This document shows, in pieces, positions 38,872 through 45,219 of a stretch of DNA of 64,000 bases. Origin of the DNA: Burkholderia sp. WSM2230. Its GTDB lineage: Bacteria > Pseudomonadota > Gammaproteobacteria > Burkholderiales > Burkholderiaceae. How positions within the stretch are numbered: position 1 is the first letter of the stretch; each line of letters begins with the position of its first letter. The stretch is taken from positions 188,551 to 252,550 of the forward strand of contig NZ_AXAJ01000008.1 of assembly GCF_000472445.1 (NCBI RefSeq), given 5' to 3'. Under the pieces are notes generated by a model. It made no database searches. It was not told the origin of the DNA and saw nothing but the letters and a program-made list of their open reading frames with translations. Made by a program: the position numbers and the translations under genes.

Positions 38872-39810
38872 GTGCAGTCGTTCGTCATCAATCTGCTGAA
38901 CGGAATCAGCTTCGGCCTCCTGCTTTTCATGCTGTCGGCCGGCTTGACGCTGATTTTCAGCATGCTCGGCGTGCTCAACTTCGCGCACGCGAGCTTCTAC
39001 ATGCTGGGCGCTTACGTCGGCTACTCGGTCGCGGCGCGAGCCGGCTTCTGGGCCGCGCTCGTGATCGCGCCGCTTGCCGTCGGGCTGATTGGTGCCGCGC
39101 TCGAACGCTGGCTATTGCGCCGCGTGCGAAGCCACGGACATCTGGCCGAGTTGCTGCTGACCTTCGGCGCCGCCTATGTGCTCGGCGAACTCGTCAAGCT
39201 CGGCTGGGGCTTGAGTCCGCTCGGCGCAAGCGTGCCCGCGGCGCTCGACGGTCCGCTTTTCACGCTGTATGGCGCGACCTTTGCGCGTTATCGCGCATTC
39301 ATGATGGCGGTTTCGCTCGGCATGCTGGCGCTCCTGTACGCGGTGCTGCGGGTGTCGAAAGCGGGGCTCATCGTTCGCGCGGCACTCACGCACGCGAGCG
39401 CCGTCGAAGCGCTCGGTCACAACGTGCCGCGTGTCTTCACCGGCGTGTTTGCGGCGGGCACGGCGCTGGCCGCGCTGGCCGGCGTGATCGGCGCGCCGCT
39501 CTCTGTGATCGAACCGGCGATGGCCGAATCGCTCGGCTCGATCGTGTTCGTGGTCGTCGTGATAGGCGGGCTCGGGTCGCTGGGCGGCGCGCTCACAGCG
39601 TCGCTGCTGATCGGCTGTGTGCAGACGCTCGCGGTTGCAAGCGACGTATCGCTCGGCGACGTGCTCGCCATCTTCGACGCTTCCCTGCCGCGCGAATGGG
39701 ACACGCTCACGCTCGCACAGCTCGCGCCGCTGATTCCGTATCTGCTGCTCGTCGCGATGCTGGCGCTGCGCCCGCGCGGACTATCCGGACGGCGTGACGA
39801 CCATGCGTGA
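38872..39810 (+). CDS. livH: Branched-chain amino acid-type ABC permease LivH
   Basis: This integral membrane protein (312 aa) is one of the two permease subunits of a LivHMGF-type importer for hydrophobic amino acids or related compounds. It has about eight hydrophobic segments and the family start SFVINLLNGISFGLLLFMLS with LNFAHASFYMLGAY. The GTG at 38872 lies 4 bases after the thioesterase stop. The end overlaps livM by 8 bases. Substrate cannot be told, since no binding protein is encoded nearby. Confidence 0.92.
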   Translation: MQSFVINLLNGISFGLLLFMLSAGLTLIFSMLGVLNFAHASFYMLGAYVGYSVAARAGFWAALVIAPLAVGLIGAALERWLLRRVRSHGHLAELLLTFGAAYVLGELVKLGWGLSPLGASVPAALDGPLFTLYGATFARYRAFMMAVSLGMLALLYAVLRVSKAGLIVRAALTHASAVEALGHNVPRVFTGVFAAGTALAALAGVIGAPLSVIEPAMAESLGSIVFVVVVIGGLGSLGGALTASLLIGCVQTLAVASDVSLGDVLAIFDASLPREWDTLTLAQLAPLIPYLLLVAMLALRPRGLSGRRDDHA

Positions 39811-41155
39811 ACTCTTCAAGCCCACCGCACGAGTCGCCGCGACGTCAAGGCCGGAGGCCGATGCGCGAGCCGCTCAAGCCCTGCAGGCCGGGCGCGTCAG
39901 GTCCGTCACGTGGCGCCGTCTGTTACCGTGGCTCGCGCTGGTTCTGCTGCTTGCGCTGCCGCCCTTCATCTGGCGGCAAAGCTGGCTGCTCGCCTACCTC
40001 GCGCAGACCGCGACGATGATCGTCTTCGCGCTCTCGTACAACCTGCTGCTCGGCGAAACAGGACTGTTGTCGTTCGGACATGCGGCTTACTCCGGCCTCG
40101 GCGCACTGATCGCCGCGCACGTGTTCAACCGTGCCGGCGTACCGCTCGCGCTGCTGCCGCTCATCGGCGGAGCAGGGGCCGCGCTATGCGGCGCGCTGCT
40201 CGGTTTCATTTCGACGCGCGGCGCCGGCACGGCGTTCGCGATGATCACGCTCGGCATCGGCGAACTCGTCGCCGCCGCCGCGTGGACCTTGCCCGGCTGG
40301 TTCGGCGGCGAGGCAGGCGTCGCAATCGACCGCGCGAGCGGACCGACGTTCGGCGCGTGGACATTCGGCCCGGCCCGCGAGGCGTATGCGCTGATCGCGC
40401 TGTGGTGTCTGCTCGCCGCCGCGGCGATGTTCGCGCTGACGCGCACGCCGTTCATGCGCCTCGCCAACGCCGTGCGCGACAACCCGGCGCGCGCCGCGGC
40501 CATCGGCTGCTATCCGCGCCGGATCCGCCATGGCGTCGTGGTGATGTCGGCGTTTTTTGCGGGCGTCGCGGGCACGCTTGGGCTAATCAATGTCGAGCTG
40601 GTGTCGACGGAAAGCGTGAGCATGGTGCGCTCCGGCACTGTGCTGATCGCGACGGTGACCGGCGGCACGGGCGCCTTTTTTGGGCCGGTCGCGGGCGCGG
40701 TCATGCTGACGTTTTTCAGCGTGGCGGTGGCCAGCGTCACCCGCGCCTGGCTCTTTTATCTCGGGCTGTTCTTTGTCGTGATCGTGGTGGCTGCACCGGA
40801 TGGGCTCGCCGGTTTCATGGAGCGGCATGTGGCGCGGCTCGTACGGTATGGCTGGCGGCAGTGTCGTGCGCTCTATCTGGCCGGCACGGCGGCGCTTCTT
40901 CTGTGGAGCGCCGCCGTCGTGCTCGCGGTGCAGTGGGCGTACGCCGCGCAATTCGGCGCGGACGAAGGCGCTGCGCTGCGCGCGACCGCCGGGCCTTCGC
41001 TGCTATCGTTCGTCGCGTCGTCGACTTTGCGGCTTGGCCTCGCGATTGTGGTCCTGGCTGCTTGCGGCACGCTGGCGGCATTAGCCGCGCGCCGGGCACA
41101 AGGCCGTCTTGCCGCGCAGGTGCGCGTGCTGCAAAACACCGGAGACGCGCGATGA
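39803..41155 (+). CDS. livM: Branched-chain amino acid-type ABC permease LivM
   Basis: This is the second permease subunit (450 aa). The core matches LivM: YNLLLGETGLLSFGHAAYSGLGA and the cytoplasmic loop FMRLANAVRDNPARAAAIGC. At 450 residues it is longer than many LivM proteins, because of an N-terminal charged tail of about 40 residues and a C-terminal extension with extra hydrophobic segments (about residues 350-445). The ATG at 39803 lies within the livH end; a GTG at 39794 is possible. Its stop overlaps the livG ATG (ATGA). Confidence 0.9.
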   Translation: MRELFKPTARVAATSRPEADARAAQALQAGRVRSVTWRRLLPWLALVLLLALPPFIWRQSWLLAYLAQTATMIVFALSYNLLLGETGLLSFGHAAYSGLGALIAAHVFNRAGVPLALLPLIGGAGAALCGALLGFISTRGAGTAFAMITLGIGELVAAAAWTLPGWFGGEAGVAIDRASGPTFGAWTFGPAREAYALIALWCLLAAAAMFALTRTPFMRLANAVRDNPARAAAIGCYPRRIRHGVVVMSAFFAGVAGTLGLINVELVSTESVSMVRSGTVLIATVTGGTGAFFGPVAGAVMLTFFSVAVASVTRAWLFYLGLFFVVIVVAAPDGLAGFMERHVARLVRYGWRQCRALYLAGTAALLLWSAAVVLAVQWAYAAQFGADEGAALRATAGPSLLSFVASSTLRLGLAIVVLAACGTLAALAARRAQGRLAAQVRVLQNTGDAR

Positions 41156-41916
41156 TCCCGGCGCTCGCGCTGTATGGCGTCGAAAAACGTTTTGGCGCCA
41201 CGCAGATCCTGCGCGGCGTGAATCTCGCCATCGAACCGGGCGAACGCCATGCGCTGATCGGGCCGAACGGCGCGGGCAAATCCACGCTGTTCAATCTGAT
41301 CGCCGGCGGCGCGCGGTCCAACGCGGGGCGCATCCATCTGTTCGGCGCGGATATCACGCGGCTTGCGCCGGCGGCCATCACGCGCCGCGGCCTCGCGCGC
41401 AGTTTCCAGAGCACCAGCGTTTTCGCGCGCCTGAGCGTCTTTGACAACCTGCGCTGCGCCGCACTGCTTGCCGAGCGCGACCGCACGCGCTGGTGGCAGC
41501 GTTTTGCGGGTTCATCCACGGTCGATGCACGCGCGTGGCAGGTGCTCGAGGCGGTCGGCCTCGGCGAGCGCGCGCAAGTGCCGGCCGGCACGCTCAGCTA
41601 TGCGGAGCAGCGCGCGCTCGACCTCGGCATTGCGCTCGCGGGCGGCGCGCATACGTTGCTGCTCGACGAGCCCACCGCCGGCATGAATCGCGCCGAGGCG
41701 GCACGCGCGATCGAACTGATCCGCGAGACCACCGGGGGTCGCACGCTGCTGATGGTCGAGCACGACATGAACGCGGTGTTCGCCATCGCCGATCGCATTT
41801 CAGTGCTTGTGCAAGGGCGCATTATCGCGACCGGCACGCCCACGGCGATTCGCGCCGACGCCGCGGTACGCGCGGCCTATCTGGGCGACGGGTTCGATGA
41901 GCGAGGCGGCGTATGA
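41152..41916 (+). CDS. livG: Branched-chain amino acid-type ABC ATPase LivG
   Basis: This cytoplasmic ATPase (254 aa) has Walker A GPNGAGKST, the LivG-type signature TLSYAEQRALDLGIAL and Walker B TLLLDEPTAGMN, followed by VEHDMNAVF. It powers the LivHM channel together with LivF. It overlaps livM and livF by 4 bases each, so the operon is tightly coupled. Confidence 0.93.
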   Translation: MIPALALYGVEKRFGATQILRGVNLAIEPGERHALIGPNGAGKSTLFNLIAGGARSNAGRIHLFGADITRLAPAAITRRGLARSFQSTSVFARLSVFDNLRCAALLAERDRTRWWQRFAGSSTVDARAWQVLEAVGLGERAQVPAGTLSYAEQRALDLGIALAGGAHTLLLDEPTAGMNRAEAARAIELIRETTGGRTLLMVEHDMNAVFAIADRISVLVQGRIIATGTPTAIRADAAVRAAYLGDGFDERGGV

Positions 41917-42638
41917 CGCCTTTGCTCGACATTCGCGGACTCGACGCATGGTACGGCCTGAGCCAGGCATTGCACGGCGTGAGCCTGCGGATCGACGCCG
42001 GCGAAGTGCTCGCGCTCGTCGGCCGCAACGGCTCCGGACGCTCGACGCTCGCCCGCGCGATCATGGGCCTCGTGCAATGCGACGGCGAGCTGCGCTTCGC
42101 GGGCCGCTCGCTCGCCGGACTGCGTACGTACGAAATCGCGCGGCTCGGCATCGGCTACGTGTCCGAGCATCGCGATGTGTTTCCTACGTTGAGCGTCGGC
42201 GAAAACCTCGAGTTGGGCGTCGTGCCGCGTCGGCGCGAAAGCAGGCGCGCAGAGCCTGCTCGCTTTACCATCGACGATGCGTACACGCTTTTCCCCGTGC
42301 TGCGCGAGCGCAAGCGCACGCGTGCGGGCGCACTGTCGGGCGGCGAGCAGCAGATGCTCGCGCTCGCGCGTGCGTTGCTCGGCGACCCGGATCTGCTCGT
42401 GGTGGACGAACCGGGCGAGGGCCTCGCAAGCTCGGTCATGCAGCAGGTCGCGCAATGTCTGCGCGTGCTGCGCGAGCGCGGCATGGCGATGCTGCTGATC
42501 GAACAGCGCCTTGTGATCGCACGCGACATTGCGCGCCGCGTCGCGGTGATGGGGCATGGCGAGATCGTCTTCGACGGCGAGCTTGACGCGTTCCTGCAAC
42601 GCGCCGACGTCATGCGCGAATGGCTCGGCGTGGGTTGA
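41913..42638 (+). CDS. livF: Branched-chain amino acid-type ABC ATPase LivF
   Basis: This is the second ATPase of the importer (241 aa). The signature ALSGGEQQMLALARAL, Walker B LLVVDEPGEGLA and the switch segment IEQRLVIAR are intact. The Walker A motif reads GRNGSGRST: the invariant lysine is replaced by arginine (codon CGC). The Walker B is followed by GEG instead of the common SEGL. ATP hydrolysis at this site may be weaker, or the arginine may be tolerated in this subgroup. It ends the liv run; no livK follows. Confidence 0.92.
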   Translation: MTPLLDIRGLDAWYGLSQALHGVSLRIDAGEVLALVGRNGSGRSTLARAIMGLVQCDGELRFAGRSLAGLRTYEIARLGIGYVSEHRDVFPTLSVGENLELGVVPRRRESRRAEPARFTIDDAYTLFPVLRERKRTRAGALSGGEQQMLALARALLGDPDLLVVDEPGEGLASSVMQQVAQCLRVLRERGMAMLLIEQRLVIARDIARRVAVMGHGEIVFDGELDAFLQRADVMREWLGVG

Positions 42639-42921
42639 ATCGGCTCGCATGATCTTTCTTTCCAGGCGAGTCGGGCGCTCGCTCAAAAGCGACGGCGCAA
42701 TTCGCGTTTGAAATCCGATGGTCGACACCGCGCTCGCGACCAGCCTGCGCGGCTTTGCGCCGACCGCACACGGCGATTCAAACGCTTGATTGTTTGGTGA
42801 GCATCCTCCAGAAATGTTGTCGGCAGCACGCGGACAAATAAAGACAATCATTCGAAGGCGCGCGGCGCCGGCGCGGGCAAGCGCGTCCGCCGGATGCGTC
42901 GCGGCTTCAGGAGGAGACATC

Positions 42922-45219
42922 ATGAAAGACAAAGACGCTTTCCGCGACAAGCCCAGATGCAAGCCATGGGCGGCACGCGGGCATCGAGCATGCGTGGTGG
43001 CATCCACGAGTGGCTGGCGAGTGCCGCTGCGCGCAGCCGTCGCGTTGTTGAGCGCGGTGCTTTTCATGTCGGCGTGCGCCGGCGCGACTTCCACGATGAA
43101 CGCCGCGCCCTCCGCGGACCTGCCAGGTTCGAGCGCCTCGGGTGCGCAAGCCACTTCATCGCCGCGCCCAGCGATAGAAGCCGCAAAAGCGCAACAACTC
43201 GCTTTTGAGCAAAGCATCGCAGAGCGCGTGCCGGCCGCGAGCGGCATGAGCATGAAACGCAGCCGCGCGCTGACGCTGCGCGACTCAGGCATCGACGGTT
43301 CGCTGATGTTCGCGCGCGACGTCGATTTCCGCGTGACCGGCGACATCGGCTTCATGATTCACGATATGGCGGCGACGCTGGTGCCGGCGCGCGCCGGCGA
43401 GCCGATCGTCTTCGATGACCCGACGAGCGTAATGATCGACGTGCATCGCGGCGAAGTCACGCTCGACAGCGCGAAGCTCACCGCCATCTTCAACCGTTAT
43501 CTGTTTCGTTACCAGGGCTCGCCGCTGCGCAACATGCGCGTTGTGCCGCAGGATGGCGGCAGCTTGCGCATTACCGGCGAGATGCATCGCGACACGTGGG
43601 TGCCGATCGTGCTGTCGGGATCGCTCGCGATGCGCAGTGCCGACGAACTCGTGTTCCATGCCGATCACGTCGAGGTCGCGGGCGTGGCCGCCGACAAGTT
43701 GATGCAGGCCGCGCATGTGAAGATGGCCGACCTGCTCAGAGTTCATACGCCGATTGCGCGCCTCGACGGCGACGACGTCGTGATGCAGGTCGCGAAGCTG
43801 ACACCGCCGCCCGCGCTGCGCATGCGCATCGCGAACATCGCGACGAGCGCGGCGGGCGTGCGCTTCACGCTCGACGACGGCACGCTGCCGAAGATCGACT
43901 GGCCCGCGAACATGCCCGCGCGCGGCATGCTGCTGCAAGGCGGCGATGTGAAGTTCATGCGCTCCATGCCGATGAACATCGACATGGCGTTGACGCCCAT
44001 CGACGCCGGCACGCCGTTCGTGCTCGATCTGTACCACTATCGCGATCAGATGGCCGCCGGCTATTTCACGTTCGACGAAGCCGGTGCGCTGGACGTTCAC
44101 CTGCCTTCGTTCACCGCCGTTGCGAGCGTGGCGAACGAGCCGCCGCAGCAGATCGGCAGCGCGAACGCGCGCTTTAACGACAGCTTCATTCGCGCGCAGC
44201 AGGCGTCGCTCGCACAGGCGCGGCTCGTCTGGCAACACGTACCGCAGAGCTTGCAAAGCGCGTCGGCGGCGCGCGCGATGCCTGTCAGCCTGCGCGCGGC
44301 ATTGTCCGGCCGCGCGCAGGGGACTCGAACCCCTACACCCAACGACGAGCGTCATTCGCCCGGTACTACCGCGCTGATTCACGTCGAAAACGTGGACTTC
44401 TACGTAGCGGGGCGCATCGGCTTTCACGTGCGCTCACTCGACGCGCAGATGGTCCCGAAGACGCCGGGCCAACCGGTCGATCTCGACGATCCGGGGCAGT
44501 ACGACATACGTATCATCGGCGGGGAGGTGGTCGAGCCGTGGCCCGCGATGGCTGCGCTATTTAACGACTATCTGCTCGATTACGAGCCACGCTCGCTCAA
44601 CGACCTTCAATTGAAACCGATGGACGGCAAGCTCGAAGTCACGGGCGGCATCAAGCTGTGGAATCACTTTCCTGGCGTATGGCTGCCCACGACGATGAGC
44701 GGCACGATCGTCGCGAGAGACGAGCGGCACCTCGTGTATCAGCCGACTTCTGTGAAGGTGCTTGGCGTGCCGCAGGCCGCATTGCTGCGCGCGCTCGACA
44801 TTCCGCTTGCCTCGCTGACACCGTTCACGCGCAAGGGCGTCGCGCTGCAAGGCAACGAACTCGTATTCGATCAGTACACCGTATTTCCACCGCCGGTGTT
44901 GCAAGGGCGCCTCGCGAGCGCGACGGTGACCGACGACGGCCTCGTTCTCAAGTTCAAACGCGAGACCGGCGTTGCTCTCGCGCGGCCGCCGGACAACGGT
45001 GGAAAGAGCGCTGCAAAGAGCTATGTATGGATCGAGTCCGGCGACGTGAAGATGTTCAACTCGCTCGTCACCAACGCGCGAACCTTCATCAAGGACAGTT
45101 CGAACTCGGGCGCGATGAAGTTCGATCTGTACGGCTATCGCCGGGACGTTTCCAAAGGCACGGTGCGGATGGGCACCGACGGTGCGCTCGACGTGGATCT
45201 CGCCGCGCGCGGCAAATGA
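42922..45219 (+). CDS. Large internally duplicated lipoprotein of unknown function (765 aa)
   Basis: A strong AGGAGGAG site lies just before the ATG. A hydrophobic stretch ending FMSACAG suggests a lipoprotein with lipidated Cys after an unusually long basic N-region (about 50 residues). The mature protein has two related halves of about 260 residues (roughly 134-393 and 491-762). Matching pairs occur in the same order: VDFRVTGDIGF / VDFYVAGRIGF, FNRYLFRYQGSPL / FNDYLLDYEPRSL, SGDVKMFNSL / GGDVKFMRSM, and GALDVHLP / GALDVDLA. I know no characterised homologue. Alternating strands resemble lipid-binding LmeA/DUF2993-like or AsmA-like folds, but this is a guess. It is flanked by liv and iol genes, with no evident link. 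Confidence 0.8.
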   Translation: MKDKDAFRDKPRCKPWAARGHRACVVASTSGWRVPLRAAVALLSAVLFMSACAGATSTMNAAPSADLPGSSASGAQATSSPRPAIEAAKAQQLAFEQSIAERVPAASGMSMKRSRALTLRDSGIDGSLMFARDVDFRVTGDIGFMIHDMAATLVPARAGEPIVFDDPTSVMIDVHRGEVTLDSAKLTAIFNRYLFRYQGSPLRNMRVVPQDGGSLRITGEMHRDTWVPIVLSGSLAMRSADELVFHADHVEVAGVAADKLMQAAHVKMADLLRVHTPIARLDGDDVVMQVAKLTPPPALRMRIANIATSAAGVRFTLDDGTLPKIDWPANMPARGMLLQGGDVKFMRSMPMNIDMALTPIDAGTPFVLDLYHYRDQMAAGYFTFDEAGALDVHLPSFTAVASVANEPPQQIGSANARFNDSFIRAQQASLAQARLVWQHVPQSLQSASAARAMPVSLRAALSGRAQGTRTPTPNDERHSPGTTALIHVENVDFYVAGRIGFHVRSLDAQMVPKTPGQPVDLDDPGQYDIRIIGGEVVEPWPAMAALFNDYLLDYEPRSLNDLQLKPMDGKLEVTGGIKLWNHFPGVWLPTTMSGTIVARDERHLVYQPTSVKVLGVPQAALLRALDIPLASLTPFTRKGVALQGNELVFDQYTVFPPPVLQGRLASATVTDDGLVLKFKRETGVALARPPDNGGKSAAKSYVWIESGDVKMFNSLVTNARTFIKDSSNSGAMKFDLYGYRRDVSKGTVRMGTDGALDVDLAARGK

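Follow-up and report, generated by a model that had tools for sequence, protein, structure and literature searches.

The open reading frame at positions 42922..45219 (plus strand) of the window, as we call the whole 64,000-nucleotide stretch of Burkholderia sp. WSM2230 DNA analysed here, encodes 765 residues that read as a lipoprotein made of two similar halves, and the question is what such a protein may do in the cell envelope. Database searches gave no direct answer: the whole protein had zero matches in Pfam, NCBIfam and the PDB sequences, and, judged by these profile searches, the family is not covered by any model in the copies of Pfam and NCBIfam searched.

Predicted lipid anchor and two homologous modules

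The frame is open throughout and begins at a conserved ATG, preceded at normal distance by a conserved SD sequence, AGGAGG; this start context is kept in ~40 Paraburkholderia relatives, and the GGAGGAGACATCATG block near the start is conserved among relatives as well. Translation and the alignment of relatives place a signal peptide at 42922..43077 (+), composed of a long, variable n-region, a hydrophobic core and the lipobox LFMSA/C52, whose Cys codon lies at 43075-43077 (+). C52 and A53 do not vary among the 18 aligned relatives, and the lipobox LFMSAC with its invariant Cys after a signal peptide marks the product as a bacterial lipoprotein, with acylation predicted. The sequence-only reading had pointed to an unusually long N-region in front of the lipobox; the length is real but says little, as the lipobox Cys of relatives lies anywhere from ~residue 20 to 90 and the sequence before it is poorly conserved. 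Because both length and sequence vary among relatives, we gave the N-region no weight. We infer that the protein is tethered to the envelope membrane via acylated Cys52 and faces the periplasm. According to the sorting rule for lipoproteins of E. coli, an Asp at position +2 bears on membrane location; position +2 is Ala here, not Asp, which makes an outer membrane location appear the more likely one.

Downstream of the lipobox Cys, the alignment places a low-complexity spacer and a pre-module helix, IEAAKAQQLAFEQSIAERVP (~residues 85-104; helix predicted at 84-102), at 43078..43272 (+). They are followed by an N-type TULIP-like module (residues 118-398; 43273..44115, +), a linker with a helix, SANARFNDSFIRAQQASLAQARLVWQ (44116..44352, +), and a C-type TULIP-like module (residues 478-761; 44353..45204, +), the likeness to TULIP domains, which are tubular and lipid-binding, being predicted. 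Half 1 (~residues 120-398) and half 2 (~480-761) share 29% identity over 282 residues (E 2e-35), and their local alignment score of 300 compares with a mean of 35 and a maximum of 63 for shuffled sequences (z 48). The similarity of the two halves is far beyond chance. The first reading of this DNA had already described a 765-residue lipoprotein of two homologous halves, and the alignment, together with the invariant C52, bears this out. It had also been right about the linker, put at about 95 residues and measured at ~85-95, and about the GALDV-D/H-L ending of both modules (GALDVHL and GALDVDL); only the module size has to be corrected, from 260 to ~280 residues.

The modules as adjacent genes and as a fusion

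When 150 genomes from the window's own family were searched with a module profile, 34 of them, from 4 of 25 genera, had matches. In wider samples, in which each count includes the window's own genome, matches were found in 3 of 300 genomes of the order, 4 of 369 of the class and 6 of 398 of the phylum; a plasmid collection contained no relatives. The distribution of the family is patchy. The fused form occurs in the window's genus (Paraburkholderia) and in two further genera, g117 and g129.

Genus g128 (13 genomes) has the split form, with each module in a reading frame of its own and the two frames adjacent. In the loci read, the upstream gene has a lipobox (QSC/ATAG), the downstream gene has a Sec signal (ARA/AEP), and the two overlap by ATGA. 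Further split pairs were found in the families f212 and f227 (same class) and f210, and as a second, diverged pair in genome G328 (locus L077). Junctions were read in seven pairs: the overlap is 4 bp in five and 11 bp in a sixth, and in the seventh the genes are 32 bp apart. Some split pairs have an N protein with only a Sec signal or a possible transmembrane anchor, and the lipid anchor is therefore not universal. With N and C profiles that were built from other genera, except for the L077 and g128 rows, which were included, the better match was always N for gene 1 and C for gene 2, by a narrow margin for gene 1 of L099. In split pairs as well as in fusions, N always precedes C.

In a maximum-likelihood tree of the modules from the window's own family, an N clade is separated from a C clade with 100/100 support; the second pair of G328 sits on very long branches, so that its placement inside each clade is unsure. 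Because all N modules separate from all C modules at this support, the duplication predates these genera. The linker of the fused protein corresponds, in the alignment, to the pre-module helix (AQ..L...R..W) with which the free-standing C-type protein of split relatives begins, as expected if a stop codon and a signal peptide were lost. One single fusion event would be the simplest reading, and fission elsewhere is possible.

The genomes G328 (L077 5275-7688) and G717 (L100 4051-6176) each carry a second, strongly diverged N/C pair, that of G717 having the layout seen in g128 with an upstream lipobox LAGC/SS. Since both hold such a pair, N and C appear to have been kept together as a unit. In genome G277 (L080 2277-2993) we observed what is left of a C-type module, which aligns in broken form and has no N partner in sight; it probably belongs to a decaying second pair. 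That the modules act as a functional pair is well supported, and the stronger evidence, the existence of the halves as separate, paired genes elsewhere, lay outside what the sequence-only reading could see.

Predicted fold and relation to known TULIP proteins

Because the full-length AF2 model is poor (pLDDT 56), our reading of the fold relies on the module model alone. Half 1, modelled from an alignment of 40 rows in which N- and C-type sequences are mixed (A3), gave a pLDDT of 83 and a pTM of 0.83. Compared with the PDB by VIA-align, this model ranked YceB at the top, with a Z of 6.4 over 140 residues, which is modest on VIA-align's own scale. The next ranks were taken by CETP, LBP, BPI and P47 (Z 4.5-4.8), and the unrelated, bile-salt-binding VtrA/VtrC was also among the matches (Z 4.9); with the full-length model, YceB again came first. 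For comparison, DALI values in the literature are 6.0 for TULIP-N versus TULIP-C and 9.2 for YceB versus BPI-C, both of them pairs of accepted TULIP domains (PMC5507252), which would bring a Z of 6.4 within the TULIP range. Foldseek found no match of the module model in the PDB at E < 0.001, and the module profiles matched nothing significant among PDB sequences.

A sequence signal points in the same direction. A scan of 40 single modules against Pfam brought out matches of N-modules of several relatives to LmeA (PF11209), and two N-modules from other genera also matched (7.5e-4 and 1.8e-3). In all, the E values are 8.1e-5, 5.3e-4, 7.5e-4, 1.6e-3 and 1.8e-3, over ~150 to 180 collinear residues. 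The best match, in the N-module of a relative, spans 179 collinear residues at 23.2 bits, below the Pfam gathering score of 27.3 bits, a cut-off that no module reaches. Only some N-modules match; neither the C-modules nor the window protein itself did. Taken together, the models make it probable that each module folds as a TULIP-superfamily tube, built of long, curved, antiparallel strands and a helix as in BPI and YceB. The sequence-only reading had suggested envelope lipid handling and named LmeA, AsmA and TULIP proteins for comparison by structure prediction, besides profile searches with single modules. The TULIP and LmeA side of that suggestion holds, with YceB as the top structural match and the sub-threshold LmeA matches of several N-modules; no AsmA or Chorein-N match was found in Pfam, and AsmA and TamB were absent from the VIA-align structure lists.

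The closest known systems resemble the window family in part. LmeA (DUF2993, PF11209), a periplasmic protein of mycobacteria, is a phospholipid binder with a TULIP domain (PMC7643837, PMC6791001); the likeness lies in the predicted TULIP region, the collinear N-module match and the periplasmic location. It is, however, a single-module protein of ~270 aa from actinobacteria, cyanobacteria and some firmicutes (PMC6791001), whereas the window family occurs in proteobacteria, has two modules that have diverged and carries a lipoprotein anchor. YceB of E. coli (DUF1439; PDB 3L6I), the closest in structure, is likewise a Gram-negative envelope lipoprotein, but it has one module, is 186 aa long and has no detectable sequence similarity to the window family: the DUF1439 model had no match in Pfam, and hhalign of our profile against the single YceB sequence was null. 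We know of no paired partner of YceB.

With respect to architecture, the bacterial pseudo-dimer DUF4403 has two TULIP domains per chain, like BPI (PMC6791001). In the window protein, two homologous modules in one chain are certain from the alignment, and that each is a TULIP domain rests on models; in contrast to DUF4403, the modules of this family also occur as separate adjacent genes. The DUF4403 model of Pfam matched neither the window protein (E up to 10) nor the single modules (40 modules at E up to 1; 22 modules at E up to 0.1). BPI, CETP and LBP have the two-TULIP architecture that is predicted for the window protein and were found as structural matches at Z 4.6-4.8, but they are eukaryotic, secreted and soluble, and have no sequence match to the window family.

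Genomic setting and probable function

In the window, the TULIP-like gene lies downstream of livHMGF and convergent with iolB, iolE, iolD and iolC, an arrangement common to most Paraburkholderia relatives. The stretch at 38872-42638 holds a 4HBT thioesterase gene followed by livHMGF; several relatives have no livHMGF here, and three of them retain the thioesterase. Other genera have unrelated neighbours, and no conserved partner was found across lineages besides the N/C pair itself. In family f210 (genomes of 6.0-6.7 Mb), the split pair stands directly before folA (dihydrofolate reductase) and abuts it (L118 5310-7923). We take PA0348/PA0349 to be the Pseudomonas genes adjoining folA; a literature search for them found nothing. 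The gene is frameshifted in one symbiont MAG (L039 6001-8286), and fragmentary in another (L045 6001-6812), and in Paraburkholderia sp. BL9I2N2 no more than a 3' remnant of it is left (L046 6001-6351); it is therefore dispensable in some lineages.

Upstream of the gene, a conserved dyad, ATTCAAACG-N6-YGTTTGGT (42776..42799, +), is common in its exact form among relatives and has one mismatch in the window copy. Of 43 Paraburkholderia loci, 39 have an exact CAAACG-N6-CGTTTG in the 1 kb before the gene, and the 607 kb of these loci contain no other copy. In genus g117 the form CAAAC-N4-GTTTG (12 of 14 loci) fits, as a sequence, the published consensus of PsrA, C/GAAAC-N2-4-GTTTG/C (PMC13104628), a regulator tied to fatty acids and predicted in Burkholderia to control fatty acid biosynthesis (PMC5343134). 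As the spacing in Paraburkholderia differs and the window copy has a mismatch, regulation of the TULIP-like gene by PsrA is a lead only. In searches of the window's own genome, neither the PsrA-like CAAACG-N2-CGTTTG nor the exact N6 form turned up, which left no regulon to draw. Closer to the gene, 13 aligned upstream regions share a conserved block, TTGTCGGCAGCACGCGGACAAATAAAGACAATC at 42818..42860 (+), i.e., TTGTCGGCAGC-CGC-GACAAAT-AAGACAATC. The block includes an inverted repeat, TTGTC/GACAA, and is possibly the core promoter; a sigma-70 scan found no site.

How else could these data be read? The modules might have another beta-barrel or sheet fold, YceI/lipocalin-like or new, and the TULIP ranking would then reflect a generic sheet of long strands. 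YceI-family structures do appear in the VIA-align lists (Z 3.4-3.8), hhalign gives a weak local YceI match (P 0.0013 over 39 residues), 1y0g matches the module profile at E 0.39, and the Foldseek result would fit as well. However, YceB was aligned over 140 residues at Z 6.4, with three human TULIPs and P47 next, and the independent sequence signal, running over 150-180 collinear residues, is that of a TULIP family, LmeA, compared with 39 residues for YceI. The YceI signal was judged to be a local strand pattern, and we regard another fold as unlikely. Of the same low order is the chance that the protein is a structural or scaffolding lipoprotein of the envelope, whose TULIP-like modules make protein contacts and carry no lipid. 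No family match implies catalysis, no partner is conserved beyond the pair and the neighbourhood changes between lineages, all of which would suit a scaffold; on the other hand, LmeA and those TULIPs that have been characterised are mainly lipid binders (PMC5507252, PMC7643837).

An accessory role for the neighbouring ABC transporter of branched-chain amino acids (liv) or for inositol catabolism (iol) is suggested by the position of the gene, which livHMGF and iolBEDC flank in the window as in most Paraburkholderia relatives. Yet the gene is kept where no liv genes were detected in the flank (L019, L026, L036, L041 and L042), and its neighbours in other genera are quite different. With the neighbourhood not conserved, we rejected a link to liv or iol, which we hold to be very improbable.

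Our preferred reading, held with some confidence, is a fused, membrane-anchored TULIP pair that probably holds or shuttles an envelope lipid; the same measure of confidence applies to lipid handling as such. In this model, the N and C modules would pack against each other in a heterodimer or pseudo-dimer of the kind seen in BPI, CETP and DUF4403, the acylated Cys52 would anchor the chain to the envelope membrane with the modules facing the periplasm, and the hydrophobic tube would bind an acyl-chain lipid and hold or shuttle it. In the fusion, the N gene probably lost its stop codon and the C gene its signal peptide, so that a single acyl anchor would now serve both modules. A bolder version, which we put forward tentatively and rate below even chances, is an undescribed two-component periplasmic lipid carrier of proteobacteria. 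One TULIP subunit would be anchored in the envelope and the other secreted, the two being obligate partners in a heterodimer; in Paraburkholderia-type bacteria they would be fused into one lipoprotein, and in some they would be under PsrA-like, fatty-acid-sensing control.

How lipids cross the periplasm of Gram-negative bacteria is incompletely known, and of the few TULIP proteins of bacteria most are uncharacterised. A review of 2017 saw no evidence for TULIP dimerisation in prokaryotes at that time (PMC5507252), and a survey of 2019 listed DUF4403 as the one full-length pseudo-dimer (PMC6791001). New is that, by tree and gene order, the modules fall into two ancient clades, N and C, and that other genera encode them in separate, adjacent genes. 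In sum, a family that exists both as partner genes and as a natural fusion offers evolutionary evidence for a paired, probably heterodimeric, bacterial TULIP, and the split pairs make the partnership of N and C open to simple experimental testing.
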